Shown piece after piece: positions 33,410 through 58,171 of a DNA stretch of 63,483 nucleotides. Source of the stretch: Acetobacteraceae bacterium (lineage in GTDB: Bacteria; Pseudomonadota; Alphaproteobacteria; Acetobacterales; Acetobacteraceae). The notes under the pieces are model-generated. The model did not search any database, had not been told where the DNA came from, and saw only the letters and a program-made list of their open reading frames with translations. Both the position numbers and the translations under genes were made by a program. Position 1 is the first letter of the stretch. Each line of letters starts with the position of its first letter. The stretch is taken from contig CANBXZ010000003.1 in assembly GCA_947373495.1 (NCBI GenBank), forward strand, positions 1 to 63,483. The letters are read 5' to 3'.

Positions 33410-34018
33410 TCAGGCCTCGTCGGCCGGGATATCGGCCAGGATGCGGGCGCGGGCAATGCGGTCCGGACCCTGCACCATGCCGGAGCCACCGCTGCCGCGC
33501 TTGATCTTGTCCACGTTCTCCATGCCCTGCGTCACCTTGCCCCAGATGGTGTACTGGCCATCCAGGTGGCTGCTGGGCGCGAACATGATGAAGAACTGGC
33601 TGTTCGCGCTGTCCGGGTTGTTGGTGCGCGCCGCGCCCAGCGTGCCGCGCTGGAAGCGGGCCTTCTGCGGCGAGGAGAACTCGGCGGGCAGGTCCGGCAG
33701 GTCGGAACCGCCGGTGCCGGTGCCGGTGGGGTCGCCACCCTGGGCCATGAAGCCTTCGATCACGCGGTGGAACGGCGTGCCATCGTAGAAGCCGCGGCGT
33801 ACCAGGGTCTTGATGCGTTCCACGTGCAGCGGCGCCAGGTCGGGGCGCAGCTCGATCACCACCTTGCCGTGCGGCGTTTCCAGCACCAGCGTATCTTCGG
33901 CCTTGGGGTCCACCACCGCAGGGGCGGCGGCAGGCGCGGCCGGGGCCACGGCGCCGGTTTCGTCGGCGGTCTCGGCCGGGATCTCGGCGGGGGTCTCAGC
34001 CGGGGTTTCGTCGCTCAT
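33410..34018 (-). CDS. cyclophilin-type peptidyl-prolyl isomerase, cytoplasmic
   Basis: Encodes 202 residues. The first 45 residues are low complexity with repeated P-A-E-T/P-A-E-I units, then Ala-rich. They contain no signal peptide, so the protein should stay in the cytoplasm. The cyclophilin core follows: GTPFHRVIEGFMAQGGDPTGTG (catalytic Arg in FHRV) and NSQFFIMFAPSSHLDGQYTIWGKV. It catalyses cis-trans proline isomerisation. It is a paralogue of the next gene, 21 bp upstream on the same strand. Confidence 0.95.
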   Translation of the reverse strand: MSDETPAETPAEIPAETADETGAVAPAAPAAAPAVVDPKAEDTLVLETPHGKVVIELRPDLAPLHVERIKTLVRRGFYDGTPFHRVIEGFMAQGGDPTGTGTGGSDLPDLPAEFSSPQKARFQRGTLGAARTNNPDSANSQFFIMFAPSSHLDGQYTIWGKVTQGMENVDKIKRGSGGSGMVQGPDRIARARILADIPADEA

Positions 34019-34039
34019 TGTTTCATGTCCTTGCGAAAT

Positions 34040-34579
34040 TCAGGCGTTTACCAGGCGGGCGCGCAGCAGGCGGTCGGGGCCATTGACCACACCGCCACTG
34101 CCGGTTCCGCGCTTGATCTTGTCCACGGCATCCATGCCGCCCACCACCTGGCCCCAGATGGTGTATTGGCCGTCCAGGTTCGGAGACGGCCCGAACATGA
34201 TGTAGAACTGGCTGTTGGCGCTGTTCGGGTCGCTGGCGCGGGCCATGCCGCAGGTGCCGCGCAGGAAGCGGTAGCGGTTGGTGAACTCGGCCCGCAGGTT
34301 GGGCAGCGGGGAACCGCCGGTGCCGGTGCCGGTGGGGTCGCCACCCTGGGCCATGAAGCCCTCGATCACGCGATGGAACGGCGTGCCATCGTAGAAGCCC
34401 TGGCGCACCAGGGTCTTGATGCGCTCGACATGGTTCGGCGCGACATCATGGCGGAACTGGATGGTGACCGGGCCGTCCTTCAGCTCGAACACCAGACGTT
34501 CCTCGGCCGGCTGCGCGCGCAGCACGGAGGGGGAGGCCAGCCCGGCAAGGGCCAGGCCGGCGAGAACACGACGCTGCAT
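34040..34579 (-). CDS. cyclophilin-type peptidyl-prolyl isomerase, exported
   Basis: Encodes 179 residues. It begins with a signal peptide (MQRRVLAGLALAGLASPSVLRAQ), so it is a periplasmic folding catalyst. The core is nearly the same as in its neighbour: GTPFHRVIEGFMAQGGDPTGTG and NSQFYIMFGPSPNLDGQYTIWG. The tandem pair looks like a duplication followed by compartment specialisation. It lies between coaD (14 bp) and the cytoplasmic copy (21 bp). Confidence 0.95.
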   Translation of the reverse strand: MQRRVLAGLALAGLASPSVLRAQPAEERLVFELKDGPVTIQFRHDVAPNHVERIKTLVRQGFYDGTPFHRVIEGFMAQGGDPTGTGTGGSPLPNLRAEFTNRYRFLRGTCGMARASDPNSANSQFYIMFGPSPNLDGQYTIWGQVVGGMDAVDKIKRGTGSGGVVNGPDRLLRARLVNA

Positions 34580-38038: not shown

Positions 38039-38066
38039 GCCTGGGGCGGGCTTATTCGCCCCAGGC
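38039..38066 (-). terminator. hairpin terminator after the MmgE/PrpD gene
   Basis: A 10-bp perfect stem (GCCTGGGGCG / CGCCCCAGGC) with an 8-nt loop lies 42 bp past the MmgE/PrpD stop on the minus strand. It separates the catabolic operon from gyrA. Confidence 0.75.
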
Positions 38067-38108: not shown

Positions 38109-39470
38109 CTATTCCGCCGCCAGCCGGGCCGGCGCCAGCAGGCCCAGCAGCGCCGTCACCGGCCGGTCCCCGGGGGCCAAAATGGCCTGGGCCACCGCCC
38201 CGGCATCGGCCACGCTGCCGGCATGGCGGAGGCAGCCGGCCAGCTTGGTGGTCAGCTCGGCATCGCTCAGCGGCAGTTCCGCGCCCCCGCGCAGCGCGTC
38301 CACCCGGCGGCTCAAGGTGCGGCCATCCTTCAGCGCCAGGGTCACGCTGCTGAAGCGCGGCTTCAGGCTGCCGGGCAGTTCCTTCTTGGTCACCTTGGGC
38401 AGGAAGGCCTGGATCTCGGCCCGCTGCACCGCGGCGTCCTCGAAGCTGGCCAGTTCCACCCGGCCATCCGCCAGGCCGGCGGCCATGGCGTATTGCATGG
38501 AGAACTTGCCCTCCAGCCCGGTCTTCGGCGCGTCGTGCAGCAAGGGCGAGAAGCTGCGGTTGGTGCCCTCCACCGCCACGCTGGCCACATCCGCCAGCGC
38601 CACGCCGGTTTCCCGCTTCAGGTCCAGCAGCGCGTCCAACGCGCGATGGGTGGCGTAGCACATCGGGTATTTCTTCACCTCCAGCCCGGCCCGCACCAGC
38701 AGGCGCGGTGCCTGGCCCAGCTCGGCCATCCCGGCCACCAGGTCCTCCCCGGCGCCATACAGCTTGGCGTAGCCGCGCGGGCCTTCCAGGCTTTCCGGCG
38801 CGCTGTCAAAACCTTCCCGCGCCAGCAGCACGGACTGCAGCGCGGCGCGGTTGCTGTGGCCGGCCTGGAAGCTCTTGGCGTCGGTGCCGAAATTCTCGCG
38901 GCTGCCGGCGGCCTGGGCCACGGTCAGGCCAATGGCGTTGGCGGTCTGCTCGGCGGTGAGCTTCAGCAGGTTGGCGCAGGCGGCCGTGGCGCCGAACATG
39001 CCGATGCTGGCGGTGGCGTGAAAGCCCTTGGCGTAGTGTTCATCCCCCAAGGCTTCGCCGATGCGGCCGGCGACCTCGAAGCCCACGGCATAGGCGGTGC
39101 ACACCGCTTCCAGCCCCAGCCCCTCGGCTTCCGCCAGCGCCAGCAGCGCCGGCAGCATGGCAACGGAGGGGTGGCCGCGCATCGGGCCGGTCACGTCGTC
39201 AAAGTCCAGCACATGGCCCAGCACCGCATTGGCGAAGGCGGCCTGTTCGATGCCGAGCTTTTCCTCGGTGCCCCAGATGCGCGCCACGCCCGGGCCGCTG
39301 GCGCGGCGGGCATAGGCCAGCGCCTTGACGAAGGCGGGTTCATGCGTGCCGCCGATGGCACAGGCCAACGTGTCCAGCAGGGCGCGGCGGGCGGCGTGGC
39401 TTTCCTCCGGGCTCATGTCGGCCGCGGTGAAGCCGGCGGCGAAGGCACCGATTTTCTGCGCGAGTGTCAT
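38109..39470 (-). CDS. MmgE/PrpD family protein (2-methylcitrate dehydratase-like)
   Basis: Encodes 453 residues. I chose the ATG at 39470, which follows GAAGGGAAC; an ATG at 39494 overlapping the previous stop is the alternative. Family marks: EESHAARRALLDTLACAIGG, DFDDVTGPMRGHPSVAMLPALLALAE, and KKYPMCYATHRALDALLDL. Members include 2-methylcitrate dehydratase, itaconate-related and other hydro-lyases, and many of unknown role. Last gene of the 42535-38109 operon, where it could act on the acid left after ring cleavage. The activity is not certain from sequence. Confidence 0.88.
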   Translation of the reverse strand: MTLAQKIGAFAAGFTAADMSPEESHAARRALLDTLACAIGGTHEPAFVKALAYARRASGPGVARIWGTEEKLGIEQAAFANAVLGHVLDFDDVTGPMRGHPSVAMLPALLALAEAEGLGLEAVCTAYAVGFEVAGRIGEALGDEHYAKGFHATASIGMFGATAACANLLKLTAEQTANAIGLTVAQAAGSRENFGTDAKSFQAGHSNRAALQSVLLAREGFDSAPESLEGPRGYAKLYGAGEDLVAGMAELGQAPRLLVRAGLEVKKYPMCYATHRALDALLDLKRETGVALADVASVAVEGTNRSFSPLLHDAPKTGLEGKFSMQYAMAAGLADGRVELASFEDAAVQRAEIQAFLPKVTKKELPGSLKPRFSSVTLALKDGRTLSRRVDALRGGAELPLSDAELTTKLAGCLRHAGSVADAGAVAQAILAPGDRPVTALLGLLAPARLAAE

Positions 39471-39490
39471 GCGTGCGTTCCCTTCCCTGT

Positions 39491-40309
39491 TCATTGCTTC
39501 GCCAGGAAGGCCAGCACATCGCGTGCGCAGCGTTCCGGCACGGCGTCGCCGATATTGTGCGGCATGCCGTCATAGGTGATCAGTTCGGCCTGCGGGATCG
39601 CGTCCCGCATGCCCTCGTACAGCCCATGGTGGCCGATGGGCTCGGCACCCGGCGCCACCAGCAGCGTCGGGCACTGGATGCGCGGCAGGTCGCCGGCCCA
39701 GTTGCGGCTGCTCATGTGGTTGACGAAGCGGCCGATGAAGGCCGGGTCGTTGCGGCCCATGTCCTGCGGGAACCATTCCAGGAAGCCCGGGTCCTGGTCG
39801 GCCGGGAAACGGTCGGCGATGGTCTCACGGATGAAGCGCTCGATGCCGTCGCGCTGGAAGCGGGCGACCCAGCCGGTGGCCTGGGTGCCGGCCAGGCCGG
39901 GCGAGGCGGCGAACAGGCTGAGGCTGGCAACCCGGCCCGGATGCTCGATGGCCATGCGCTGGCCGATATAGCCGCCGGCCGAGTTGCCGACGACATGCGC
40001 CTTTGCCACTCCCAGGTGGTCCAGCAGTTCCAGTGCATCGGCCAGCAGGCGTTCCAGCGTCAGCGGCCGCTCCTCACCGGGGATTTCGCTGGCGCCGTGG
40101 CCGCGCAGTTCCGGCGTGATGCAGGTGTATTCCCGCGCCAGGATGGGCAGCCAGCCGAACCAGCGGCGATAGCTGCTCATGGCCGGGTGCAGCAGCAGCA
40201 CCGGAATGGCCGGCGTGCGCCAGGGGTCGGTGAAGTCGTCCACCCGGTAGGCCAGGCTGGTGCCGTCGCTGGCGCGGAACCGCGCCATGTTGGGGGCAAG
40301 CTGGGTCAT
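39491..40309 (-). CDS. alpha/beta hydrolase (ring-fission-product hydrolase type)
   Basis: Encodes 272 residues. The ATG at 40309 overlaps the monooxygenase stop (ATGA). The nucleophile elbow is GNSAGG with Ser110. HPAM near residue 42 supplies the oxyanion hole, and PHNIGD near the end carries the catalytic His. In meta-cleavage operons such enzymes hydrolyse the ring-fission product into a 2-hydroxydienoate and a carboxylic acid. Its position, coupled to the monooxygenase and dioxygenase genes, fits that role. Other esterase roles cannot be excluded. Confidence 0.85.
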   Translation of the reverse strand: MTQLAPNMARFRASDGTSLAYRVDDFTDPWRTPAIPVLLLHPAMSSYRRWFGWLPILAREYTCITPELRGHGASEIPGEERPLTLERLLADALELLDHLGVAKAHVVGNSAGGYIGQRMAIEHPGRVASLSLFAASPGLAGTQATGWVARFQRDGIERFIRETIADRFPADQDPGFLEWFPQDMGRNDPAFIGRFVNHMSSRNWAGDLPRIQCPTLLVAPGAEPIGHHGLYEGMRDAIPQAELITYDGMPHNIGDAVPERCARDVLAFLAKQ

Positions 40310-41490
40310 ATCGCCGCCGTCGTCGGGTCGTAGGTGTAGAGCCATTCGTAGCGGGCGCGGATTTTCTCGGCCTGCCATTCATTGTCGATATAGGCCGCCG
40401 CGCCCTCGGCATTGGCCAGCGCCGGGTTGTGGAAGCGGGCGGTGTTGTCGGTGGCGCCGCGCACCATGCGGGCGGTGCGCTCCACCCGGGCGCCCTCATA
40501 GCGGCGCAGCGCGGCCTCGGTGCCGGTTACCTCGTCCAGCGCCCGGGCCAGCATGTAGCCATCCTCGATCGCATGCACCGCGCCCTGGGCCAGGAAGGGC
40601 AGCGTCGGGTGGCAGGCATCGCCCAGCAGCGTGACGCGGCCGCGGCCCCATTCCATCAGCGGGTCGCGCGCCAGGAAGGCCCAGCGGAACGGCGTCTCGA
40701 TGGCGTCGATCATCAGGTGGATGTCGTCGTGCCAGCCGGCGAAATCGGCGTGCATCTCGGCGTGGCTGCCGCGCGAGGTCCAGCTTTCCTCCTGCCAGTG
40801 CTGGCCTTCCACCACGCCCACCAGGTTCATCAGGCGGAAGTTGCGCAGCGGGTACTGCACCACGTGGCGGCCCGGGCCGACCCAGTTGGTGGCGACGGCG
40901 CGGCGCATCCGTTCCGGCAGCTTTTCGGTCGGAATCACTCCGCGCCAGGCAAAGATGCCGGTGAAGCGCGCCTTGGCCTCGCCCCACAGCTGGTGGCGGA
41001 TGGCGCTGTGGATGCCATCGGCGCCCAGCAGCATGTCGCCCTCGGCGCTGCTGCCATCGGTGAAGCGCAGGCGCACTCTCTCGCCCAGGTCATCGAAGCC
41101 GGCGGCCTTCCGGCCCAGGCGGATGCAGCCCGGCGCGGCTTCGCGCACCGCCGCTTCCAGCACGCCCAGCAGGTCCGGCCGATACACGGTGAGGTAGGGA
41201 AAGCCGTAGCGTTCAATGCATTCGCCGACGATGTCGAACGGCTGCCACGCCTGGCCGGTGGACCACAGCCGCACCTCCTTGCCCGGCGTCTCGCAGGAGA
41301 TGGCGGTGACCTTCTCCCCCACGCCCAGCGCGTAGAGCACGCGGGCACCGTTGGGCGAAACCTGCACCCCGGCGCCAACTTCGGTCAGTGCCTGGGCCTG
41401 TTCGTAGACCTCAACCTCATAGCCGCGCTGCAGCAGGGCCAGCGCCGCGGTCAGGCCGCCAATGCCGCCGCCGGCGATCAGGATCTTCAT
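40306..41490 (-). CDS. FAD-dependent aromatic monooxygenase (salicylate/3-hydroxybenzoate hydroxylase type)
   Basis: Encodes 394 residues from the ATG at 41490. A GGGIGG FAD motif lies at 7-12, the DG motif GADGIHSAIRHQL in the middle, and the GD motif GDACHPTLPFLAQGA near residue 300: the three marks of group A flavoprotein hydroxylases. It would add a hydroxyl to an aromatic ring using NAD(P)H and O2, preparing the substrate for the extradiol dioxygenase encoded 37 bp upstream. Closest by look to salicylate and 3-hydroxybenzoate 6-hydroxylases; the exact substrate is unknown. Confidence 0.9.
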   Translation of the reverse strand: MKILIAGGGIGGLTAALALLQRGYEVEVYEQAQALTEVGAGVQVSPNGARVLYALGVGEKVTAISCETPGKEVRLWSTGQAWQPFDIVGECIERYGFPYLTVYRPDLLGVLEAAVREAAPGCIRLGRKAAGFDDLGERVRLRFTDGSSAEGDMLLGADGIHSAIRHQLWGEAKARFTGIFAWRGVIPTEKLPERMRRAVATNWVGPGRHVVQYPLRNFRLMNLVGVVEGQHWQEESWTSRGSHAEMHADFAGWHDDIHLMIDAIETPFRWAFLARDPLMEWGRGRVTLLGDACHPTLPFLAQGAVHAIEDGYMLARALDEVTGTEAALRRYEGARVERTARMVRGATDNTARFHNPALANAEGAAAYIDNEWQAEKIRARYEWLYTYDPTTAAI

Positions 41491-41527
41491 GGCTTGTCGT
41501 TCCCCTGGGCTTGCTGCCGGTCGGGGC

Positions 41528-42535
41528 TCATTCCGCGGCCCCGCGCACATTCTGGTCCCACCACAGGCATTCGCCCTGGCGCAGTTGGTGATTGCCTTCC
41601 AGCACCTGCACCGGCACCCGCTCGCCGCGCTTGGCCGCCGCCATGCGCATTTCCTTGGCCGCCGCGCGCTGGTCCGGCGGGGTCCAGTCGCGGTCATGGC
41701 CCCAGAGCGACGGGCCGCTGGTCACCTCGGTGGCGGTCCAGTTCGGGTCGTCGATGGTGCGGCCGCCCCAGCCGTATTCCACCAGGAAGCCGCTGGGCGA
41801 GTAATTGTAGAAGCTGAGCATGTAGTCGTTCACATGCCGGCCCAGCGTGGTGGCGATGCGCTTTTCCTGCTCCTGGGCGATGTCATAGGCTTGGCCGACA
41901 TCGTCCATCATGTAGGTCTCAAGCATCAGGTGGTGCAGCTTCGGCTGCGGATTCTCGATCAGCGCCAGGCTGTGGTGCCGGGCATTGCAGTGGAAGAAAT
42001 AGGCGCGGAACGGCTGGGTGATGTAGTCGCTGACCCGGAAGCCCAGGATGTCGCGGTAGAAGCCCAGCATCCGGTCGATATCCGGCACCCACAGCACCGC
42101 ATGGCCCATGCCCAGCACGCCGGTGCGGAAGCCGCTGATCGGCCGGCCCGGCACGAAGGGTGCCGCGGTGCTCTCGGCGCCGTGGGTCAGTTCCACCCGG
42201 TTGCCCAGCGGGTCCTCGCACCACACCAGGCCGGCCACGGCGCGCTGCGCGCACAGCGCCGCGTCGCCGCGATGCACCCGCACCCCGGCGGCTTCCAGCT
42301 TGGCCGCCATCGCGTCCAGCGCGGTGGCGTCGGCCAGTTCCCAGCCGAAGAAGGCGGCGCCATTGCCGGCATCCTCGGCCACCAGCAGGCGCTGCTTGCG
42401 GTCGTCCATCCGGAAGCGCAGCTGGGTGCGGGTCTGCTCGGCCAGTTGCAGCCCCAGCAGCCTGGTGCCGAAGCTGGCCCAATCTTCCAGAGAGGTGGCG
42501 CGCACGCCGACATACCCCAAGGCCTGAACCTGCAT
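41528..42535 (-). CDS. extradiol ring-cleavage dioxygenase (VOC/type I, two-domain)
   Basis: Encodes 335 residues; the ATG at 42535 follows GAAGGGAACG. Two vicinal-oxygen-chelate domains are visible. The C-terminal one carries the iron triad: His145 (GMGHAVLWVPD), a His in LHHLMLETYMMDDVG (201 or 202) and Glu253 (SPSGFLVEYGWGG), matching BphC-type catechol 2,3-dioxygenases. It opens a catecholic ring next to a hydroxyl. First gene of a four-gene minus-strand operon with a flavin hydroxylase, a hydrolase and MmgE/PrpD. Divergent from the TctC pair at 42621. Confidence 0.9.
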   Translation of the reverse strand: MQVQALGYVGVRATSLEDWASFGTRLLGLQLAEQTRTQLRFRMDDRKQRLLVAEDAGNGAAFFGWELADATALDAMAAKLEAAGVRVHRGDAALCAQRAVAGLVWCEDPLGNRVELTHGAESTAAPFVPGRPISGFRTGVLGMGHAVLWVPDIDRMLGFYRDILGFRVSDYITQPFRAYFFHCNARHHSLALIENPQPKLHHLMLETYMMDDVGQAYDIAQEQEKRIATTLGRHVNDYMLSFYNYSPSGFLVEYGWGGRTIDDPNWTATEVTSGPSLWGHDRDWTPPDQRAAAKEMRMAAAKRGERVPVQVLEGNHQLRQGECLWWDQNVRGAAE

Positions 42536-42620
42536 GGCACCGTTCCCTTCCTGTCTTGCCGGCGATGTTAGACTGCGCTTGGCTGGCTGGCGACACCCGG
42601 GGTGTCCAAGGGGGAAACGC

Positions 42621-43568
42621 ATGTTCTGGCGCGGCATACTGCTGCTGGTTGCATTGTATCTGGCCGGGGCTGCCCAGGCGCAGCCGGCGTTTCCGGACCA
42701 CCCGATCCAGGTCATCAACCCCTATGGCGCCGGCAGCACCACCGACCTGCTGACCCGCGCCCTGGCCAGCGCCATGCAGCCCCGCCTGGGCCAGCCGGTG
42801 GTGGTGGTGAACCGAGACGGCGTGGCCGGCGGGCTGGGCACCGGCCTGGCCGCCCGCGCCCCGGCCGATGGCTACACCCTGCTGTTCGCGCCGGCGGTGG
42901 TGTTCTCGGTGCTGCCCAGCGTCCGGCAGGACCTTGGCTACCGGCCGGAAAGCTTCACCCCGGTGTGCCAGGCGTTCGAGAACACCATGGTGCTGGCGGT
43001 GCGGCAGGACAGCCCGCTGCGCACCCTGGCCGACCTGGTGACAGCCGCTAAGGCCCGCCCCGGCGCGCTGACCTATGGCCATCAGGGCGTCGCCTCGGTG
43101 CCGCATCTGGCCGCGGTGGTGTTCCTCCAGGCCGCGGGGGTCGAGGCGCAGGACGTGCCCTATCGCAGCGAGCCGAACGTGGTGGTGGAATTGCAGGCCG
43201 GGCGGGTGGATTTCGGCGCGCTGGTGGCAGGTTCCATCAACAACCAGCCGCTGCGGGCGCTGGCGGTGTTCGCGCCCCGCCGCCACCATCTGCTGCCGGA
43301 GGCCCCGACCGCCCGCGAGCAGGGCTACGACCTCTCGCCGGCCAGCTTCGGCGGGCTGTTCGCCCCGGCCGGCACCCCGGCGCCAGTGGTGGCGCGGCTG
43401 GCTGCCGCCTGCGCCGCCGCGGCAACGGAGCCGAGCTATGCCGAGGCCGCCCGGCGCGGCTTCCAGCCGCAGGCGTATCACCTGGGCCCGGAAGCCTTCG
43501 CCGCCCGCCTGCAAGCCGAGATTGCCGAGAAAGCCCGGCTGCTCGCCGGCCTGCGACTGGACCGCTGA
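42621..43568 (+). CDS. TctC/Bug-type binding protein, first of tandem pair
   Basis: Encodes 315 residues; the ATG at 42621 follows gggggaaacgc. The signal peptide (MFWRGILLLVALYLAGAAQA) ends before QPAFPDHPIQVINPYGAGS. Family marks VVVVNRDGVAGGLGT and GHQGVASVPHLAAVV are shared with the next gene, so the two are recent paralogues. Likely periplasmic receptor for an aromatic or related acid, given the divergent ring-cleavage operon 85 bp away. No TctAB subunits in the window. Confidence 0.9.
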   Translation: MFWRGILLLVALYLAGAAQAQPAFPDHPIQVINPYGAGSTTDLLTRALASAMQPRLGQPVVVVNRDGVAGGLGTGLAARAPADGYTLLFAPAVVFSVLPSVRQDLGYRPESFTPVCQAFENTMVLAVRQDSPLRTLADLVTAAKARPGALTYGHQGVASVPHLAAVVFLQAAGVEAQDVPYRSEPNVVVELQAGRVDFGALVAGSINNQPLRALAVFAPRRHHLLPEAPTAREQGYDLSPASFGGLFAPAGTPAPVVARLAAACAAAATEPSYAEAARRGFQPQAYHLGPEAFAARLQAEIAEKARLLAGLRLDR

Positions 43569-43569
43569 G

Positions 43570-44505
43570 ATGCGCCTGACCTGCCTGACCTGCCTGCTGC
43601 TGCTCGCCCTGCCGGCCTGGGCCCAGGCGCCCTTCCCGGCCCGGCCGATCACCATCATCAACCCCACCGCCGCCGGCGCCAGTACCGATGTGCTGCTGCG
43701 CGCCCTGGCGCCCGCGCTGCAGGCCCGGCTGGGCCAGCCCGTGGTGGTGGTGAACCGCGAGGGTGGTTCCAGTTCGCTCGGCACCGCCATGGTCGCCAGG
43801 TCCCAGCCCGATGGCTACACGCTGTGGTTCGGTGCCGCCTATTCGCTTTCGGTGCTGCCGGTGATCCGCGCCGATGTCGGCTACAGCGCCGCCAGCCTGG
43901 AGCCGGTGTGCCAGGCCTTCGTCAACACCATGGTGCTGGCGGTGCGGCCCGACAGCCCCTTCGCCACCTTGCAGGACTACATCGCCCGGGCGCGGCAGCA
44001 GGGCGCCACCTTCGGCCACCAGGGCGTGGCCAGCATTCCGCACCTGGCCATGGTGGAACTGGGCCAGGTGGCCGGGGTGCCGTTGCAGGACATTCCCTAT
44101 CGCGGTGATCCGCCGGTGGTGGTGGATACGCTGGCCGGCCGGGTGGACGCCGGGGCGCTGGTGCTGGGCAGCCTGCGCGGCCAGAACCTGCGGGCGCTGG
44201 CGGTGTTCGGCGCCAGCCGCCACCCGGACCTGCCGCAGGTGCCCACGGTGCGCGAAGCCGGTTGGGACGTGGCGCCGGAAAGCTTCGGCGGCATCTTCGC
44301 CCCCACCGGCCTGCCCGCCACGGTGCGCGCCACCCTGGCCGCGGCCTGCGAGGCCGGCGTCGCCGACCCGGGCTATCGGGAGGCCGCGCGGCGCGGCTTC
44401 CAGCCGGCGGAACTCTTCCTCGGCCCAGCCGAACTTGCCGCCAAGCTGCAACGGGACATCGCCGCCAAGGCCCGGCTGCTGCGCGGCATCAGCCTGGAAC
44501 GCTAG
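43570..44505 (+). CDS. TctC/Bug-type binding protein, second of tandem pair
   Basis: Encodes 311 residues, one base after the previous stop (tgagATG). Signal peptide MRLTCLTCLLLLALPAWAQ. It shares with its neighbour the blocks NPTAAGASTDVLLRAL, CQAFVNTMVLAVRPDSPF and GHQGVASIPHLAMVE, which points to tandem duplication. The C-terminal REAARRGFQPAELFLGP block is also common to both. It may bind a related but different ligand. A strong palindromic element follows. Confidence 0.9.
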   Translation: MRLTCLTCLLLLALPAWAQAPFPARPITIINPTAAGASTDVLLRALAPALQARLGQPVVVVNREGGSSSLGTAMVARSQPDGYTLWFGAAYSLSVLPVIRADVGYSAASLEPVCQAFVNTMVLAVRPDSPFATLQDYIARARQQGATFGHQGVASIPHLAMVELGQVAGVPLQDIPYRGDPPVVVDTLAGRVDAGALVLGSLRGQNLRALAVFGASRHPDLPQVPTVREAGWDVAPESFGGIFAPTGLPATVRATLAAACEAGVADPGYREAARRGFQPAELFLGPAELAAKLQRDIAAKARLLRGISLER

Positions 44506-44567: not shown

Positions 44568-45419
44568 CTAGTGAACCAGTTGCATCTCCGGAATGCCTTC
44601 GCTGGCCACCCAGAAGCGGTTGATGGAATCGGCATGGGTGGCGCGGGCGGCGGCATCGGCTTCCGCCGCCGGGCGGGGTTCCAGGTCGAAATGGCCATGC
44701 CGGTCCACGCCGCGCACCAGGGTAGCGGAAAGCCGGGTGGGGCCGACATGCCGGACGCTGGCCGGAATATAGCTGATCCCCAGCCCGATACGATCCTGCG
44801 CCGTATGGTTCGGCGCGCTGGCATGCAGCGCCAGGGTGTGATGCAGGCTGAACTCGCCCGGTGCCAGCACCAGCGGCACCGCGCCGGCTTCCTCCACCGC
44901 CGCCTGCACCGTCTGCCCGCGTGAGAGCATGTTGTCCGGGTTCTTGTGGTCCGCATGCGGCAGTTGGCCGCGCTTGTGGCTGCCCGGCAGCACGCGCACA
45001 CAGCCGGCTTCCGGCGTGCTCGGCGTCAGCGCCAACCAGGCGGTCACGTGCTCGAACGGCTCCAGCCCGAAATAGGTGCCGTCCTGGTGCCAGGGCACGA
45101 AGCCCTCGCCCTGCGCCGGCTTCCACCAGATGGTGGTGTGGAAGATCATGATGTCAGGGCCGATCACATCCTCCACCGCATCCAGGATGGCGGGGCTGCG
45201 CACCAGCTCGGCCGCCCAGGGGAACAGCAGGTAGGGCTTGATCCGGTTGCTGGGCTGGCGGATGCCGGCCGCGGAAGCCAGGCGTTCCGCCTGGCCGCAG
45301 CAGCGCACCAGGTCGGCCTGCCAGCGGGCCGCCTGGGCCGCTTCCACCGCGCGCAGCGGCGCGGCGTAGCCTTGCTCGCGGTAGCGGACGATGGCGGCTT
45401 CATCCAGCAGCTTGGGCAT
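44568..45419 (-). CDS. phytanoyl-CoA dioxygenase (PhyH) family Fe(II)/2-oxoglutarate oxygenase
   Basis: Encodes 283 residues from the ATG at 45419. Iron ligands His111 and Asp113 are in FVPWHQDGTYFGL, and the distal His is in the FSLHHTLALHAS segment near residue 205; the facial triad is complete. Family members hydroxylate or oxidise diverse small molecules using 2-oxoglutarate and O2. It stands alone between two palindromic elements. The substrate is unknown. Confidence 0.88.
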   Translation of the reverse strand: MPKLLDEAAIVRYREQGYAAPLRAVEAAQAARWQADLVRCCGQAERLASAAGIRQPSNRIKPYLLFPWAAELVRSPAILDAVEDVIGPDIMIFHTTIWWKPAQGEGFVPWHQDGTYFGLEPFEHVTAWLALTPSTPEAGCVRVLPGSHKRGQLPHADHKNPDNMLSRGQTVQAAVEEAGAVPLVLAPGEFSLHHTLALHASAPNHTAQDRIGLGISYIPASVRHVGPTRLSATLVRGVDRHGHFDLEPRPAAEADAAARATHADSINRFWVASEGIPEMQLVH

Positions 45420-45548: not shown

Positions 45549-46271
45549 TCATGCCGCCACGGGCTGCGGCATGACCCACAGCGCCCGCGCCGCGCCGCGC
45601 AGCCCGCCATCGGCGCCGAAGATGGCGGTGCCGGCATGCAGCTTGCGACCCTCCCGCGCGATCTGCCAGCCCAGCACGATGCACGCCTCCCCGGCTGCCA
45701 CGCCGCCGGTCAGCCGCGCCGTCAGCCGGGCGAGCAGCGAACGCGGCGGCGCATCCGCCAGGGTGAAGGCGAACTGGCCGGGGCAGTCCAGCGCCGTCCA
45801 CAGGAACTCCGGCCGCACCTGGCCGCTGGCATCGGCGAAGACCGGGTCTGGCCGCCACAGCGCCGCCGAGATGCCCGGCCGGCCCGGCACCGTGCCACTG
45901 AAGACGCGCAGCCCGAACGCCGGGGCCAGGTTGGTGCCGCAGCAGAAGCATTGGCCGGTGGAATGGCTGAAGCCGGCGCCCTGGAACCAGGCGCTGGCCG
46001 CGGCGGCCGCCGCCGTGCTGGGCGGTTCCGGCACCTCCAGTTCCAACTCAGCCGGCCTGGCCTCCACGATCAGGGTGCCGGCGTCGTCGCAGACCAGGGC
46101 GCGGTCGGCTTCCAGCCGGGCCTGCAGCGTGGTGTCCAACGGCACCGGACGGCGCAGGGTTACCTCGGCCGGGCCATCGTCCAGCAGCAACGCCGCGCGC
46201 CCGGCCACATAGCCGCCATTGCCGGTGCCCGGCGGGCCGCGGAACTGCGCGGCAACACGATATTCGCTCAT
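45549..46271 (-). CDS. hot-dog-fold (thioesterase-like) protein
   Basis: Encodes 240 residues; the ATG at 46271 overlaps the cupin stop (ATGA). The N-terminal GPPGTGNGGYVAGRAALLL and the internal CFCCGTNLAPAFGLRVF resemble acyl-CoA thioesterase-like double hot-dog proteins, with the C-terminal strand LHAGTAIFGADGGLRGAARALWV typical of the fold. No catalytic Asp/His is obvious. It is the last gene of a coupled trio with the cupin and cyclase genes. Function not recognised; thioesterase or dehydratase-like activity is possible. Confidence 0.65.
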   Translation of the reverse strand: MSEYRVAAQFRGPPGTGNGGYVAGRAALLLDDGPAEVTLRRPVPLDTTLQARLEADRALVCDDAGTLIVEARPAELELEVPEPPSTAAAAAASAWFQGAGFSHSTGQCFCCGTNLAPAFGLRVFSGTVPGRPGISAALWRPDPVFADASGQVRPEFLWTALDCPGQFAFTLADAPPRSLLARLTARLTGGVAAGEACIVLGWQIAREGRKLHAGTAIFGADGGLRGAARALWVMPQPVAA

Positions 46272-46717
46272 CTGATCTCCGCCGGGGTGGAGGTGCCGGG
46301 GCCTTGGCCGACAATCAGCAACTCGCAGGATTCCGCCTTGGCGCCATCGTAATGGATGCCACGGCCAAAATGGGTGATGAAGCTGCCGGCCGAAACCGGC
46401 ACGGTGCTGTCGGGGTTGAAGCGCGGGCCGCTGCCCATCCACCAGGTGCCCTTCAGCACGGTGATGAAGCGGTCATTCGGGTGGAAATGCGGCCGCGACA
46501 TGCTGTTGGGCAGCCAGCGGTTCATCACCGCGTAGAAGCCTTCCTGCCGCGGGTCGCCCACCAGCAGCGCCTGCTGGCTGCCACTGGCGGAAACCGGGCC
46601 CCAGGGGATCTGTTCCGGCAGCTTGAAGGCGATGGCGGCGGGGTCCACCCCCTGCGCCCAGGCCTGGCGGGAAAGCGGTGCCAGCGCGGCGGCCAGCAGC
46701 AGCGCACGGCGGTTCAT
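46268..46717 (-). CDS. secreted cupin-domain protein
   Basis: Encodes 149 residues. A signal peptide (MNRRALLLAAALAPLSRQAWA) precedes a single cupin barrel with the metal-binding block SRPHFHPNDRFITVLKGTWW and a GSFITHFGRGIHYDG second block. It is exported and should bind a divalent metal. Its start and stop both overlap neighbours (ATGA at each end), so its level is tied to the cyclase gene. Confidence 0.85.
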   Translation of the reverse strand: MNRRALLLAAALAPLSRQAWAQGVDPAAIAFKLPEQIPWGPVSASGSQQALLVGDPRQEGFYAVMNRWLPNSMSRPHFHPNDRFITVLKGTWWMGSGPRFNPDSTVPVSAGSFITHFGRGIHYDGAKAESCELLIVGQGPGTSTPAEIR

Positions 46718-47391
46718 GGCGCATCACCCTCAATGGCGATGACGCGCGCCGGGGCGCCGTCGCTGTCGGGCAGCTTCACCGGCAGCGCCACCACGAAGCT
46801 GCGCGCCTGGGTCAGCGCCCCGGTGTTGCACAGGTATTCGAACATGATGACGCCCTGCTTCAGCAGGTGGAAATGCGTGACATGTTCCGGCAGGGGCGGC
46901 CGCTGCTGCTTGGTGATGAAGTAGCGGATGCAATGGTCCTGCGGAAAGTCGAAGCCCACCGCCTTGATGCCGGCCTCACGCAGGAAAATCGCCGCGTCGG
47001 CGCTCATCCACGGCGCCAGCCCCCAGAATTCCGGCTGGTTGATGCTGTAGTGCCGGTCCCATTGGGTCTTGAGGATGGCGATGTCACCGCGCTTCAGGTG
47101 CCTGGCGCTGGCGGCGATGCGCTCGCCACTGATCTCGGTGTTCTCCGGCACGTCCGACAGGTCGAGGATCGCCGCCTCGCCCACCGTCATGTCCAGGTTG
47201 ATGCTGTCCGTGGTGAAGCCCTGCGGGTCGACGTGGCGCGGGCTGTCCATGTGGGTGAAGGAATGCAGGTTCCAGCCCGCCCAGGTGCCCTGGCCTTGGC
47301 CGTCCTCGTGCTTCTTGAACAGGCGGCGTTCCACCGGCCAGCGGAAATGCCCGGTGGTGACTGGTGTGGAAAGGTCCACATAGCGGCGCAT
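46714..47391 (-). CDS. cyclase-family (kynurenine formamidase-like) metal hydrolase
   Basis: Encodes 225 residues. The cyclase family metal motif (usually H-x-G-T-H-x-D-x-P-x-H) is present as H43-S-F-T-H47-M-D49-S-P-R-H53, with Phe in place of the usual Gly. DLSDVPENTEISGERI and GFDFPQDHCIRYF follow. Relatives hydrolyse amides, lactones or cyclic imides. It is the first gene of a trio with the cupin and hot-dog genes. Its ribosome-binding site lies in the 3' arm of a hairpin (47400-47419). Confidence 0.85.
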   Translation of the reverse strand: MRRYVDLSTPVTTGHFRWPVERRLFKKHEDGQGQGTWAGWNLHSFTHMDSPRHVDPQGFTTDSINLDMTVGEAAILDLSDVPENTEISGERIAASARHLKRGDIAILKTQWDRHYSINQPEFWGLAPWMSADAAIFLREAGIKAVGFDFPQDHCIRYFITKQQRPPLPEHVTHFHLLKQGVIMFEYLCNTGALTQARSFVVALPVKLPDSDGAPARVIAIEGDAP

Positions 47392-50054: not shown

Positions 50055-51554
50055 TTACCCATTGGTCCCGGGGTCCAGCGGATAGATCGGTCGCCGGACA
50101 TTGCGGAACGTCAGCTGTGAATAGTCGGAGGTGCAGACACCAACGCCGGCGCACTCCACGATTTCCCGCGCCAGCGGCCCCAGCGCCGCGCGCCAGTGCA
50201 CGCGGGACTTGATGGCCAGGAAGCGCTTGTCCCGCGGCTCGATGCCCAGCACCCGGAACATGTCCGGCGAGGTGGGTTCGATCTGCCGGGTCACCAGCAC
50301 GATCTCCACCGCGCCGGTGTCGAGCACCACGGTGGGGCCCATGTACACCTTCAGCCCCGGCGCCAGCCCGGCCTTGGTGACGAAATAGCCGGCGGAGATG
50401 GTCTTCACCGTGCCCTTCACCCGCAGCGGGGTGGAGGAACGCGGCAGTTCCGGCATCGGCAGCTTGCCGCCGAGGTCCAACTCCACCTCCGCGCCCACGC
50501 CGGCGCGCTGGCAGGCGGCCACCGCCGCGGGATCGCAGATGCCGAAGAAGGCCACGTCGGTCAGGCCCTGGCGAAGGATTTCCGCCAGCACCTCCGTGGT
50601 GTCCATGGTGCCGCCGGAAGCGCAGTTGTCATAGTGGTCCAGCAGTACCACCGGCAACTCCGCCTTGGTGGCACCGGCCTGCTTTGCCCGCGCCACGCTG
50701 GCTTCCAGCGCCTCCGGCCTGAAGGTGAAGTCCTCCCGCGCCTTCCAGGCGAAGTCGAGCAGTTCCTGCACCATGGCGGCGGCGTCGGCCGGGTTGTTGT
50801 CGGTGCAGACCACGGCCGAAAGCCCGGCACCGTGGATATCGGCATGCGGGAAGCCGACATAGAGGCTGGCGCTGAGCGCGCGGCCACTGGCTTCCCAGCC
50901 GCGGCACATCGCCTGCAATTCCTTGTTGGGGAAGGCATGGGTGCCCTGCGCCATCACGTGCGGCAGCATCGGCGCCCGGGCCCAGGCGGTGGTGGGCTTC
51001 ACCTCGCCCCGCAATGCGCGCAGCAGCGGGCGGGCGGCACGCTCGGCGGTCTGGTACATGTCCACATGCGGGTAGGTCTGGTAGCCGGCGGTGATGGTGG
51101 CGTTGTCCACCATGGCGTCATGCATGTTGGCGTGCATGTCATAGGCCACGGCCATCGGCGTGGTGGCGTCGATCGCGCGGATCCGGCGCAGCAACTCGCC
51201 CTCGCCGTCCTCAAAGCGGTCGGTCACCATGGCGCCGTGCAGGTCCAGCAGAATGGCGTCCCAGCCGCCCTGCCGCACCGCATCGGTAATGGCGGTGCAG
51301 AACGCCTCATACGCGGCGCCCTCCACCTTGCCCGAGGGTGGGGCGTGGGCGGCTACCGGCACCACCACCTCGGCCCCGGCCTCGGCGGCGACATCCAGGA
51401 AGCCGCCCATGCAGGTGCGCGTGCCGCGAAAGAACCCGATGGCCCGCTCGCCCGCCAGCAACTCCGTGCCATCCCGGCAGAACCGCGCCAGGGGCGTCGG
51501 CACCGGCGAGAAGGTGTTGGTTTCGTGGCTGAGCGCGGCGAGCAGGAAACGCAT
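50055..51554 (-). CDS. M81 family metallopeptidase (microcystinase C, MlrC-like)
   Basis: Encodes 499 residues. It opens with MRFLLAALSHETNTFSP, the diagnostic start of M81 proteins. LDLHGAMVTDRFEDGEGE, AYDMHANMHDAM and GYQTYPHVDMYQTAERAARPL carry the metal-binding residues, and a second conserved block DHYDNCASGGTMDTTEVL closes the site. MlrC degrades linear microcystin fragments; most other members act on unknown peptides or amides. It is the seventh gene of the operon and sits 4 nt before pepN, suggesting a linked peptide or amide breakdown step. Confidence 0.9.
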   Translation of the reverse strand: MRFLLAALSHETNTFSPVPTPLARFCRDGTELLAGERAIGFFRGTRTCMGGFLDVAAEAGAEVVVPVAAHAPPSGKVEGAAYEAFCTAITDAVRQGGWDAILLDLHGAMVTDRFEDGEGELLRRIRAIDATTPMAVAYDMHANMHDAMVDNATITAGYQTYPHVDMYQTAERAARPLLRALRGEVKPTTAWARAPMLPHVMAQGTHAFPNKELQAMCRGWEASGRALSASLYVGFPHADIHGAGLSAVVCTDNNPADAAAMVQELLDFAWKAREDFTFRPEALEASVARAKQAGATKAELPVVLLDHYDNCASGGTMDTTEVLAEILRQGLTDVAFFGICDPAAVAACQRAGVGAEVELDLGGKLPMPELPRSSTPLRVKGTVKTISAGYFVTKAGLAPGLKVYMGPTVVLDTGAVEIVLVTRQIEPTSPDMFRVLGIEPRDKRFLAIKSRVHWRAALGPLAREIVECAGVGVCTSDYSQLTFRNVRRPIYPLDPGTNG

Positions 51555-51580
51555 CGGGGGGTCCTTCGTGGCAACGGGCC

Positions 51581-52681
51581 TCAGCGGTAGCCGGGGTCGG
51601 TCAGGTTCAGCAGCGGGAAGGCGCTGAACAGGCTGGGCGGCCGCACCGGCTGCGCCTGGTGCAGGTAGCCCGGATGCAGGTCGGCGAAGCGGGAGACGCC
51701 GAGCAGGCCGAGCACCTCATGGATTTCGGTCTGCAGCAACTCCAGCACGCGCTGCACGCCATCCTCGCCCGCCGCGGCCAGGCCGTAGCAATACAGCCGG
51801 CCGATCGCCACCATGTCCGCACCCAGCGCCATGGCCTTCACCACGTCGCTGCCGCGGCTGATGGAGCCGTCCATCCATACCTTGGCGCGGCCACCCACGG
51901 CCTTCACCACTTCCGGCAGCACGTCCAGCGAGCCGCGGCCGTGGTCCAACTGGCGGCCGCCATGGTTGGAGACGTACACCACATCGACGCCGTGGTCGCA
52001 GGCCATGCTGGCGTCTTCCGCCGTGGCGATGCCCTTCAGTACCAGCGGTACATTCGGGAACTTCGCCTTGAAATGCTTGACGTAGTCCCAGTTCAGCCCG
52101 GCCTGGAAGCTGTGGCCCACGGCGCGCGCGCGCCACGGCTTGACGAAGCGCTTGGCGATGTCGCGTTCGCGGCGACTGTAGATCGCGGTGTCCACGGTGA
52201 GGCAGAAGGCGTCGTAGCCGGCATCCATCGCCTGCTTGACGATATCGTCGCACCAGGCGGTGTCACCACGCACATACAGCTGGAACACGTTGGGGCCATT
52301 GCCGCTGGCTTCCGCCATGGGCTTCAGGCCGGGTGCGCTGACGCTGGAGACGATGGTCGGCACGCCGAACTTCGCCGCCGCGCGCGCCGCCGGGGCACCA
52401 CCCTCGGGGTCGAAGTTCTCCAACCCGCCCACCGGCGCCAGCGCGACCGGAATGCTGATCTTCTTGCCGAAGAAGGTGCTGGAGGTGTCGATGTTCGACA
52501 CATCGCGCAGCACGCGCGGGCGGAAGGCCTGCATGTCCAGCGCCATGCGGTTGCGCAGCACGGTGGTTTCGGTTTCGGTGCCGCCCACCAGGTAGTCCCA
52601 GGTGCCCGGAGTGACGCGGCGCTTCGCCTCGCTGACGAACTCGTGCAGCGTCAGGTATTGGTGGTCAGGTTCGTTCATCAT
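51581..52681 (-). CDS. FMN-dependent alpha-hydroxy-acid oxidase/dehydrogenase
   Basis: Encodes 366 residues; GAGGAA precedes the first of two adjacent ATGs. The FMN-binding barrel is complete. The catalytic His240 is in YVSNHGGRQLDHG, and MDGSISRGSDVVKAMALGADMVAIGR forms the phosphate site. The family includes lactate, glycolate and mandelate oxidases. It oxidises a 2-hydroxy acid to the 2-oxo acid. It lies between the oxaloacetate-decarboxylase-like gene (15 nt upstream) and the M81 gene (26 nt downstream). Confidence 0.93.
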   Translation of the reverse strand: MMNEPDHQYLTLHEFVSEAKRRVTPGTWDYLVGGTETETTVLRNRMALDMQAFRPRVLRDVSNIDTSSTFFGKKISIPVALAPVGGLENFDPEGGAPAARAAAKFGVPTIVSSVSAPGLKPMAEASGNGPNVFQLYVRGDTAWCDDIVKQAMDAGYDAFCLTVDTAIYSRRERDIAKRFVKPWRARAVGHSFQAGLNWDYVKHFKAKFPNVPLVLKGIATAEDASMACDHGVDVVYVSNHGGRQLDHGRGSLDVLPEVVKAVGGRAKVWMDGSISRGSDVVKAMALGADMVAIGRLYCYGLAAAGEDGVQRVLELLQTEIHEVLGLLGVSRFADLHPGYLHQAQPVRPPSLFSAFPLLNLTDPGYR

Positions 52682-52696
52682 GCTCGTCGTTCCTCG

Positions 52697-53566
52697 TCAG
52701 CCGCCCAGGTATGCCTTGGTCCAGCGTTTATACTCGTTGTCCCGCGTCACCCGCGGCATCAGCCCGGCTTCCGGCATGCCAGGCAGCGCCGCTGGCTGCA
52801 CGCCATCGCGCAGCGCCTGCAATGTCTCATGCACCGCACGCTGCGCCGCCTGGATGGGCTGGTGGCCCTGCAACGCAATGCGCACGCCGCGCGCCGCCAG
52901 ATAGTCGCGGTCCCGCATCTCCGCCGTCTCCAGCCCACCCAGGATGATGGGCAACGTGGCGACGGCGCTGATCGCGTCCAGTTCCGCCCGTGACTTCACC
53001 CCGGTGAAGAACAGCGCATCGGCGCCGGAGGCCGAGTACACCTTGGTGCGCTCCACCGCGTCGGCGATACCGTTCACCTGCACCGCGCTGGTGCGCGCCA
53101 CGATGACGAAGCTGGCGTCATCCCGCGCCGCCAGCCCGGCCTGCACCTTGCCCAGCCCCTCGGCGATGCCATGCAGCACCACGGCGCCGTCGCCGAAGGG
53201 GCGCGGCAGCACGGTGTCTTCCAGCGTCATGCCGGCGACACCCGCCGTTTCCACTTCCTGCACCGTGCGCATGGCGTTCAGCGCGTTGCCGTAGCCGTGG
53301 TCGGCGTCCACCATCAGCGGCATGGTGCTGACCGCGCGGCAGATGCGGCGGCACTGCTCGGCGAACTCGGTCAGCGTCACCACGATGAGGTCGGGCGCAC
53401 CCAGCACCGCCAGCGACGCGGTGGAGCCGGCGAACATGCCGACCTCGAAGCCGATATCCTCGGCGATCCGCGCCGACATCGGGTCCCATACCGAACCGGG
53501 GTGGATGCAGGTGGTGCCGGCCAGCACGGCGCGCAGGCGCTGGCGGCGGTCGGTGATCGTGCTCAT
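52697..53566 (-). CDS. isocitrate lyase/PEP mutase superfamily protein, oxaloacetate decarboxylase type
   Basis: Encodes 289 residues. The ATG at 53566 overlaps the Gfo/Idh stop (ATGA). The metal-site DADHGYGNALNAMRTVQEVE and EDTVLPRPFG segments, the opening SVWDPMSARIAEDIGFE, and a His in ALQGHQPIQAA all correspond to Pseudomonas aeruginosa PA4872, which the literature describes as an oxaloacetate decarboxylase. It would make pyruvate and CO2 from a 2-oxo-diacid. Within the operon it could end the pathway by feeding central metabolism. Confidence 0.85.
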   Translation of the reverse strand: MSTITDRRQRLRAVLAGTTCIHPGSVWDPMSARIAEDIGFEVGMFAGSTASLAVLGAPDLIVVTLTEFAEQCRRICRAVSTMPLMVDADHGYGNALNAMRTVQEVETAGVAGMTLEDTVLPRPFGDGAVVLHGIAEGLGKVQAGLAARDDASFVIVARTSAVQVNGIADAVERTKVYSASGADALFFTGVKSRAELDAISAVATLPIILGGLETAEMRDRDYLAARGVRIALQGHQPIQAAQRAVHETLQALRDGVQPAALPGMPEAGLMPRVTRDNEYKRWTKAYLGG

Positions 53567-54708: not shown

Positions 54709-54712
54709 GTTC

Positions 54713-55945: not shown

Positions 55946-55949
55946 GGGG

Positions 55950-57257: not shown

Positions 57258-57285
57258 GTCATTTCTCCCTCGCTCGCGGCATCGC

Positions 57286-58050: not shown

Positions 58051-58171
58051 CGTCTCATGGCTTTCTGCATCTCCGGGACTGTAGCGGGCACGGCCGCGCG
58101 GTCCAGGGGGGCCTTGCAACCGGGGGCGGAACCACTTGAAACTGGCGCCATAAGAAATGGGAGGACCAACC

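Follow-up and report, generated by a model that had tools for sequence, protein, structure and literature searches.

A gene cluster built around a BphC-type extradiol dioxygenase was analysed computationally in a 63,483-nucleotide stretch of DNA (the window: contig CANBXZ010000003.1 of assembly GCA_947373495.1, Acetobacteraceae bacterium). The cluster is conserved among relatives and probably encodes the meta-cleavage of a hydroxylated aromatic compound, followed by a non-standard lower pathway in which a protein of the MmgE/PrpD family would act on the cleavage product. This reading is carried by the gene content, by the intact catalytic residues of the dioxygenase, by the conserved linkage of the genes and by the lack of canonical lower-pathway genes above model cut-offs. 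The window, contig C3, comes from a 4.58 Mb draft genome (469 contigs, 85% complete), and its nearest BphC relatives, found with tblastn, lie in metagenome-assembled genomes labelled "Acetobacteraceae bacterium" and "uncultured Rhodospirillales bacterium". The principal features are listed here by position in the window:

38109-39470, minus strand: MmgE/PrpD family protein, 453 aa (Pfam PF03972 and PF19305)
39491-40309, minus strand: alpha/beta hydrolase, putatively enol-lactonase-like or a C-C hydrolase, 272 aa (PF00561)
40306-41490, minus strand: group A FAD-dependent aromatic hydroxylase, 394 aa (PF01494)
41528-42535, minus strand: BphC-type type I extradiol dioxygenase, 335 aa (PF00903 and PF22632, BphC_D1)
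42565-42596, strand not applicable: conserved 32-bp intergenic stretch between the divergent operons, candidate shared operator/promoter (genome comparison)
42621-43568, plus strand: TctC/Bug periplasmic receptor 1 (PF03401)
43570-44505, plus strand: TctC/Bug periplasmic receptor 2 (PF03401)

The first operon is transcribed in the order dioxygenase, flavin hydroxylase, alpha/beta hydrolase, MmgE/PrpD, and its genes are separated by a 37 bp gap, a 4-bp overlap (ATGA) and a 20 bp gap, respectively. Both TctC genes are divergent from the dioxygenase operon; the tandem receptors are 60% identical to each other and score 156 and 146 bits on PF03401 (cut-off 27), and neither TctA nor TctB was found among the cluster genes. 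An earlier note on this DNA had described these six genes as one four-gene operon divergent from a tandem TctC pair, and the coordinates, the Pfam families and the recurrence in relatives bear this out. As to the extent of the unit, that description covered only a part: the conserved unit continues past the TctC pair to position 47391 and takes in a second operon (PhyH, thioesterase fold, cupin, cyclase) that had been overlooked. The gene downstream of MmgE, gyrA (by eye), lies outside the unit.

Dioxygenase and flavin hydroxylase

Relatives of the dioxygenase were collected by tblastn, with which 323 candidate stretches were confirmed in genome contigs, and the best 80 loci were retained. After seven loci had been removed by gene-call and length filters, the remaining 73 were aligned with the window protein (n=74). 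The putative iron ligands H145, H202 and E253 and the catalytic residues H188, H234 and Y243, the roles of which we presume from BphC structures, are invariant in all 74 sequences. With its two-domain vicinal oxygen chelate (VOC) fold, 2-His-1-Glu site and His/His/Tyr set, the protein is classed as a type I (VOC) extradiol dioxygenase. On the equivalog model of biphenyl-2,3-diol 1,2-dioxygenase (TIGR03213) it scores 289.7 bits, below the cut-off of 366.45, and a plasmid BphC reference to which it is 44% identical over 290 residues scores 419.8 bits. Its best PDB match is 1han (248 bits).

Alignments with the best solved BphCs stop at residue 283 or 284 of the dioxygenase. The C-terminal tail of about 50 residues that follows (about 283-335) is conserved across the alignment, with N315 in 74/74 sequences, C323 and W325 in 73/74, W326 in 70/74 and D327 in 67/74; the N...C.WWD motif is not present in the Martelella homologue (L086). 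An AlphaFold2 model of the dioxygenase (mean pLDDT 85) is confident for both VOC domains, and its use for placing the tail was abandoned because residues 311-323 have pLDDT values below 50. Among the dioxygenase matches, the cold-seep plasmids CP070278.1 (246,192 bp) and NZ_CP066788.1 (246,197 bp), almost equal in length, carry the host labels Dysgonomonadaceae and Martelella; since both give equal match scores, one of these labels is probably wrong.

The flavin hydroxylase scores 77.9 bits on PF01494 and carries GGGIGG, GADGIHS and GDACHP, which we take to be the GxGxxG, DG and GD fingerprints; it has the features of a group A flavin aromatic hydroxylase. Its top model of 60 is that of 3-hydroxybenzoate 6-monooxygenase (NF006021), with 289.7 bits against a cut-off of 459, and each of the 25 models shown lies below its cut-off. 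The first PDB match is tropone 2-monooxygenase (8rqh, 261 bits), followed by 6-hydroxynicotinate 3-monooxygenase. A gentisate route, suggested by the NF006021 score, was rejected because that score is below the cut-off and the partner enzyme is of the BphC type; no genome-wide search for gentisate dioxygenase was made.

A ring hydroxylase is encoded within 5 kb in 20 of the 80 BphC loci (eight window-type, eight Rieske and four MhpA-related), which fits a general role of BphC after ring hydroxylation. BphC together with a window-type hydroxylase (about 70% identity) recurs in g35 and Siccirubricoccus, that is, in three genera including that of the window. In six Hyphomicrobiales loci (L022, L023, L026, L049, L064 and L075) a Rieske alpha subunit, a beta subunit and a reductase come after BphC in the same operon; the families were checked at L023 only, where the Rieske oxygenase scored highest to AndAc. 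Hydroxylation followed by extradiol ring opening, as the earlier note had read these two genes, is well supported as predicted chemistry rather than as a particular substrate.

Lower pathway and alpha/beta hydrolase

Models of 4-hydroxy-2-oxovalerate aldolase, 2-oxopent-4-enoate hydratase and LigK were run against nine distinct genomes, and nothing was found above cut-off. The best scores were 89 bits for the hydratase (cut-off 409) and 66 bits for the aldolase (cut-off 286), the window's genome being only 85% complete. A genuine aldolase and a genuine hydratase gave 548 and 473 bits on the same models, which shows only that real ones lie far above the cut-offs. A classical meta-cleavage lower pathway, taken as hydratase plus aldolase in the genome, was not found above cut-off; this negative covers the nine genomes as well as the operon. 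Enzymes of the fumarylacetoacetate-hydrolase family, or others, could perform the hydratase and aldolase steps.

The alpha/beta hydrolase scores best on enol-lactonase models (PcaDC 96.7 bits, below the cut-off). On models of C-C hydrolases it reaches 23.2 bits for BphD (cut-off 462) and 45.4 bits for HsaD (cut-off 400), and it is 28% identical to a BphD over 102 residues. A BphD-type identity was not accepted on these model scores and this pairwise likeness, both too weak, and the earlier designation as a ring-fission hydrolase that performs C-C hydrolysis finds no support in the sequence. Distributions were counted in a sample of 150 genomes of the window's family (E-value thresholds: BphC 1e-40, hydrolase 1e-40, TesB-like protein 1e-25, MmgE 1e-130). 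The hydrolase was found in 10/150 genomes. Outside the window's genus, the nine strongest of 13 matches (44-63%, L087-L093) have TctC, ABC transporters and amidohydrolases as neighbours (by eye), and BphC, where the genome has one, lies on a different contig.

The hydrolase scores bear on a different course of the lower pathway, in which the cleavage product is a pyrone or a muconolactone-like acid. The lactone would be opened by the hydrolase or, in other genera, by an amidohydrolase resembling 2-pyrone-4,6-dicarboxylate lactonase, and MmgE would hydrate a tricarboxylate, for example 4-oxalomesaconate, to a citrate-like alcohol. The preference for enol-lactonase models agrees with this, as does an amidohydrolase akin to 4-sulfomuconolactone and 2-pyrone-4,6-dicarboxylate hydrolases in the clusters of Roseicella (L011) and G088, and MmgE/PrpD enzymes act on citrate-like acids. 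That amidohydrolase, however, scores 159-161 bits against a cut-off of 500 and has no counterpart in the window cluster, no LigK-type aldolase was found above cut-off in the genomes searched, and BphC-type enzymes normally use 3-substituted catechols. We regard the lactone route as improbable.

MmgE/PrpD protein

Assignment to the MmgE/PrpD family is clear from PF03972 (208 bits) and PF19305 (99 bits), with cut-offs of 32. The closest PDB matches are iminodisuccinate epimerase (2hp3, 234 bits) and a bacterial IRG1-like protein (7bra, 192 bits) rather than PrpD (1szq, 48 bits), and the 2-methylcitrate dehydratase model (TIGR02330) gives 39.5 bits, far from its cut-off of 458.

In the window's family a window-type MmgE orthologue was found in 7/150 genomes and BphC in 45/150; six of the seven MmgE genomes also hold BphC. 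The two genes lie on one contig within about 6 kb in G000, G015, G106, G035 and G088, the assembly of G120 being broken, and a further orthologue lies near BphC in Siccirubricoccus deserti (L007), so that the pair is found in four genera. The association recurs in another order. In 198 genomes of the family of L038 (titled Xanthobacteraceae; thresholds MmgE 1e-130, BphC 1e-90), an L038-type MmgE occurs in 13 and BphC in 74, and 12 of the 13 hold both. In four of the 198 (G150, G151, G301 and G348) MmgE is directly behind BphC on one contig, with gaps of up to about 180 bp between matches; between called genes the gap is 7 bp in L038 (G150) and 22 bp in L048 (G151). Within 10 kb of L038 there are a PF04199 cyclase, a second cyclase-like gene (below the model cut-off) and a small cupin-like protein (by eye), a neighbourhood resembling the window's set. 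The same stretch (L038 1004-16217) also encodes a short-chain dehydrogenase/reductase (SDR) and a 3-hydroxyacyl-CoA-dehydrogenase-like protein (both by eye) and a PF04909 amidohydrolase.

A tree was calculated from 28 MmgE sequences: ten window-type, four L038-type (two of these not beside BphC), nine other paralogues of G000 and five other paralogues of G150, one G150 fragment being excluded. The window-type proteins form a clade (100/100) joined to one G000/G150 pair (99/96). The L038-type proteins form a separate clade next to a partial G000 paralogue (92/88), and the two types share 27% identity. The tree has several long branches and seven open inner ones. Tentatively, recruitment of MmgE may have happened at least twice, each time out of another branch of the family, to provide a lower-pathway enzyme that processes the product of the tail-bearing BphC; this would amount to meta-cleavage free of hydratase and aldolase and to a new reaction type for MmgE/PrpD, and we hold it to be possible although doubtful.

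Second operon and conservation across relatives

Beyond the TctC pair, a second minus-strand set is arranged in the order cyclase, cupin, TesB-like protein, PhyH, with pepN upstream (by eye):

44568-45419, minus strand: PhyH (phytanoyl-CoA dioxygenase) family Fe/2-oxoglutarate oxygenase (PF05721, 104 bits)
45549-46271, minus strand: TesB-like double-hotdog (acyl-CoA thioesterase fold) protein (AlphaFold2 and Foldseek)
46268-46717, minus strand: small cupin-like protein (PF12973, E 4e-5, 23.8 bits, below the cut-off of 27)
46714-47391, minus strand: PF04199 cyclase/metal-dependent hydrolase of the kynurenine formamidase-isatin hydrolase type (77 bits)

PhyH matches 6zyk (138 bits) and 2a1x (56 bits) in the PDB, and the cyclase matches 4cz1 (53 bits) and 8hmo (50 bits). 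The cupin-like protein begins with a stretch that resembles a signal peptide (by eye). No Pfam or NCBIfam family was found for the TesB-like protein at E 0.001; its AlphaFold2 model (mean pLDDT 83) has TesB (4r4u) as its top Foldseek match (E 1.9e-8, TM 0.61 by query length, rmsd 6.3, 11% identity). The model points to a TesB-type double-hotdog fold for this product, as a statement about fold alone, and thioesterase activity is putative.

For the comparison of loci, duplicate genomes were counted once (G015 = G155, L004; G106 = G154, L002), and L104, L115 and L113 were taken as the same loci as L006, L009 and L008, respectively. The six genes of the first operon and the TctC pair are in the same order in near relatives, with 80-96% protein identity. 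L001-L005 have BphCs 88-94% identical and a nearly full gene set, L002 (G106) and L004 (G015) belonging to the window's genus. The four-gene operon is complete in L001, L002, L004 and L005; in L003 the cupin is missing and the contig breaks off within the hydroxylase gene, and of the TctC pair L005 keeps one gene and lacks the second. Parts of both operons recur in five or six genera (g24 and Roseicella are possibly one genus):

g35, G035: thioesterase, PhyH, BphC, hydroxylase, TctC, MmgE
g35, G120: the gene set of G035 over three contigs, plus cyclase and SDR
Siccirubricoccus soli and S. phaeus: cupin, thioesterase, PhyH, BphC, hydroxylase
S. deserti: cupin, thioesterase, PhyH, BphC, MmgE
g24: cupin, thioesterase, PhyH, BphC
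Roseicella (L011): amidohydrolase, thioesterase, PhyH, BphC
g88 (G088): MmgE, BphC, TctC (62%), cupin, SDR, cyclase, amidohydrolase

Counted by genera, PhyH and the thioesterase-fold gene accompany BphC in five, MmgE in four and the hydroxylase in three, whereas the hydrolase does so in a single genus. No companion of BphC is as stable as the thioesterase and PhyH. The thioesterase-fold gene was found in 11/150 genomes, 10 of which hold BphC, in eight cases within about 4 kb. The divergent TctC is kept at 62% identity in G088 and at 58% in g44 (L101, L102), the other TctC matches listed there reaching 31-42%. With this divergent neighbour at 58-62% in two further genera and the 32-bp intergenic stretch in the window's own genus, the tie between TctC and the operon drawn in the earlier note is upheld.

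The presence of a hydroxylase, an extradiol enzyme, an alpha/beta hydrolase and a cupin recalls flavonoid or isoflavonoid degradation of the fde/ifc type. The hydroxylase would then add a hydroxyl to the A-ring of a plant polyphenol and the extradiol enzyme would open that ring; the hydrolase and cupins would complete this stage, leaving the released phenylpropanoid to the thioesterase and PhyH. By its gene list, PMC11069340 describes ifc/fde clusters as combining an FAD monooxygenase, a glyoxalase-like dioxygenase, an alpha/beta hydrolase and two cupins. The BphC relatives L015, L024 and L033 have an MhpA-related hydroxylase and a large alpha/beta hydrolase within 5 kb (families checked at L015 only). 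The likeness to the fde/ifc clusters, however, is one of gene lists; the window hydrolase is small and of a different type, the window cupin is single, small and, judging by its N-terminus, exported, and no finding points to a polyphenol. A flavonoid substrate is accordingly given little credence.

In the window's genus, as well as in S. soli, S. deserti, Roseicella, g24 and G120, pepN adjoins the cluster genes, which raises the question of a catabolic hot spot. In such a case the dioxygenase and hydroxylase would be a short ring-opening module, and MmgE, the hydrolase, PhyH, the thioesterase, the cupin and the cyclase would merely share the pepN-linked site. Other-looking catabolic genes are indeed present in the pepN region (50055-59185), cluster membership varies between genera, and in G021 MmgE stands beside pepN in a genome without BphC. 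Against a mere sharing of the site are the gene overlap and the 20-37 bp gaps, the proximity of MmgE to BphC in four genera and once independently in another order, and the near confinement of the thioesterase-fold gene to BphC genomes (10/11). Moreover, no pepN was seen in the stretches retrieved of G035 and S. phaeus (the latter counting for the genes other than MmgE) or in the part viewed of G088. We consider the hot spot an unlikely explanation and retain the reading of a functional meta-cleavage cluster.

Several results weigh against that reading. An MmgE orthologue at 1e-130 is missing from 39 of the 45 BphC genomes of the window's family, and the L038-type MmgE is missing from 62 of the 74 in the other family. 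At the level of loci, no MmgE lies within 10 kb of BphC at 73 of the 80, as far as these extend. S. soli and S. phaeus (G138, G063) have no MmgE orthologue and yet keep the cupin, thioesterase, PhyH, BphC and hydroxylase, and S. deserti lacks a window-type hydroxylase nearby. In G021 (99% complete) MmgE lies directly behind pepN (L111 9570-10937) and no BphC was found at E 1e-40; this copy looks like a relic. The MmgE of G088 (L095 2634-3995, minus strand) matches from residue 119 on, with more MmgE similarity in an overlapping frame, and looks frameshifted by decay or assembly error, and the G301 copy has an internal stop. The hydrolase stands beside BphC only in the window's genus, save for one remote match at L067. 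Inspection by eye and the Pfam scan showed no regulator gene in the cluster, and the E. coli control of the lower-pathway search fell below the aldolase cut-off, so that this control is not proof of sensitivity. Finally, MmgE genes are abundant (7-11 copies per genome in the eight genomes counted), and a chance MmgE neighbour within 10 kb is therefore expected at about 4% of loci; one was actually seen at 7/80 BphC loci, in two lineages. The count by itself is modest, and its weight comes from the immediate adjacency and from the repeat in a second order. The earlier note had called MmgE unusual for meta-cleavage and had proposed its co-occurrence with BphC as a check: the link recurs in four genera and, independently, in 4/198 Xanthobacteraceae-type genomes, and most BphC carriers are without it.

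The block next to pepN (50055-59185) encodes an M81-like peptidase, an FMN-dependent hydroxyacid dehydrogenase, a Gfo/Idh-like protein, an amidohydrolase, SDRs and a TRAP receptor (by eye), as well as oxaloacetate-decarboxylase-like and sulfopropanediol-dehydrogenase-like proteins; in other genera, too, several of its genes have BphC or pepN nearby (L094, L116, L117). A link of its PrpB-like gene (52697-53566) to the cluster was rejected: the nearest solved relative is oxaloacetate decarboxylase and the neighbour is a relative of sulfopropanediol dehydrogenase, so that the gene probably belongs to another pathway. On the other side, at 33410-34579, two similar tandem peptidyl-prolyl isomerase genes (by eye) lie near coaD and gyrA and fall into one protein cluster with four loci.

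Intergenic region

The region between BphC and TctC (85 bp) contains the 32-bp stretch, which is identical in four of six genomes (window included) and has one and three mismatches in the other two. Its TctC-side flank is poorly conserved, and its BphC-side flank is fairly well conserved in five of the six genomes. No match was obtained in shuffles of the window, no second copy was found in the window at up to three mismatches, and the stretch was not found upstream of BphC in L006, L007, L009 and L011. It may be a shared operator or promoter, a candidate role suggested by sequence conservation. A promoter scan gave a single weak site, located inside a gene. A terminator-like scan gave one further feature at the end of the operon:

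38039-38066, strand not applicable: 12-pair hairpin in the MmgE-gyrA intergenic space

This hairpin has no T run on the operon strand, and with five terminator-like sites in the region against 3.6 expected the hairpin evidence is weak.

Proposed pathway

The reactions, their order and the substrate are all proposed rather than observed. Uptake of the aromatic compound would probably be aided by the TctC receptors. An aromatic acid as the substrate, and its supply by the TctC pair, both raised in the earlier note, are putative. The flavin hydroxylase would yield a substituted catechol by adding a hydroxyl group, a step in which CO2 may be lost, and the BphC-type enzyme would open the ring adjacent to the diol. 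The alpha/beta hydrolase, which other genera lack or replace, would hydrolyse a C-C bond or a lactone of the product. MmgE/PrpD would then hydrate, isomerise or decarboxylate the unsaturated oxo-acid, standing in for the missing standard hydratase; we infer its action on the cleavage product from the linkage and from that missing enzyme. The PhyH, thioesterase-fold, cupin and cyclase proteins may prepare the substrate or its side chain.

If MmgE does act on ring-cleavage products, annotation of meta-cleavage by hydratase and aldolase overlooks a class of aromatic degraders, and many MmgE/PrpD proteins without an assigned role would have a function to test. In that case the tail-bearing BphC subfamily would serve well as a marker, the tail having been checked in aligned proteins only.

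Comparison with known systems

No published work on MmgE/PrpD with extradiol cleavage was found in a search whose scope left out most subscription journals. The closest published analogue found is flavonoid A-ring cleavage by fde/ifc (PMC11069340, PMC8552027). The fde (naringenin, Herbaspirillum) and ifc (isoflavone, Variovorax) clusters share with the window, by the gene list in PMC11069340, the FAD monooxygenase, the glyoxalase-like ring-cleaving dioxygenase, the alpha/beta hydrolase and a cupin; unlike them, again by gene lists only, the window has MmgE, PhyH, a TesB-like protein and a cyclase. H66 (Variovorax), considered as an ifc cluster, was rejected, as it holds 2,5-dihydroxypyridine dioxygenase.

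The biphenyl/naphthalene meta-cleavage operon of Polaromonas pPNAP01 (bphBC-dmpE-bphJ-bphI-bphD, L107) has a BphC homologue (44% over 290 residues) in which the catalytic residues are kept, and an alpha/beta hydrolase in the same operon. In contrast to it, the window lacks the Rieske oxygenase, dihydrodiol dehydrogenase, hydratase, acetaldehyde dehydrogenase and aldolase and has a flavin hydroxylase, MmgE and the dioxygenase tail, its hydrolase being barely related to BphD. Plasmid clusters with a BphC-like enzyme, a fumarylacetoacetate-hydrolase family protein and TRAP (Martelella L086, Pannonibacter L108, Roseinatronobacter L109) also have a BphC homologue (50-54% identical), a flavin hydroxylase with or near it and an organic-acid uptake system; there the fumarylacetoacetate-hydrolase family protein replaces the alpha/beta hydrolase and MmgE, and uptake is by TRAP, not TctC. 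The MmgE/PrpD family itself is shared with the methylcitrate (PrpD) and itaconate (cis-aconitate decarboxylase) pathways and with iminodisuccinate epimerase, the nearest solved relative; unlike in those systems, the window's MmgE is coupled to an extradiol dioxygenase and lies far below the PrpD model cut-offs.

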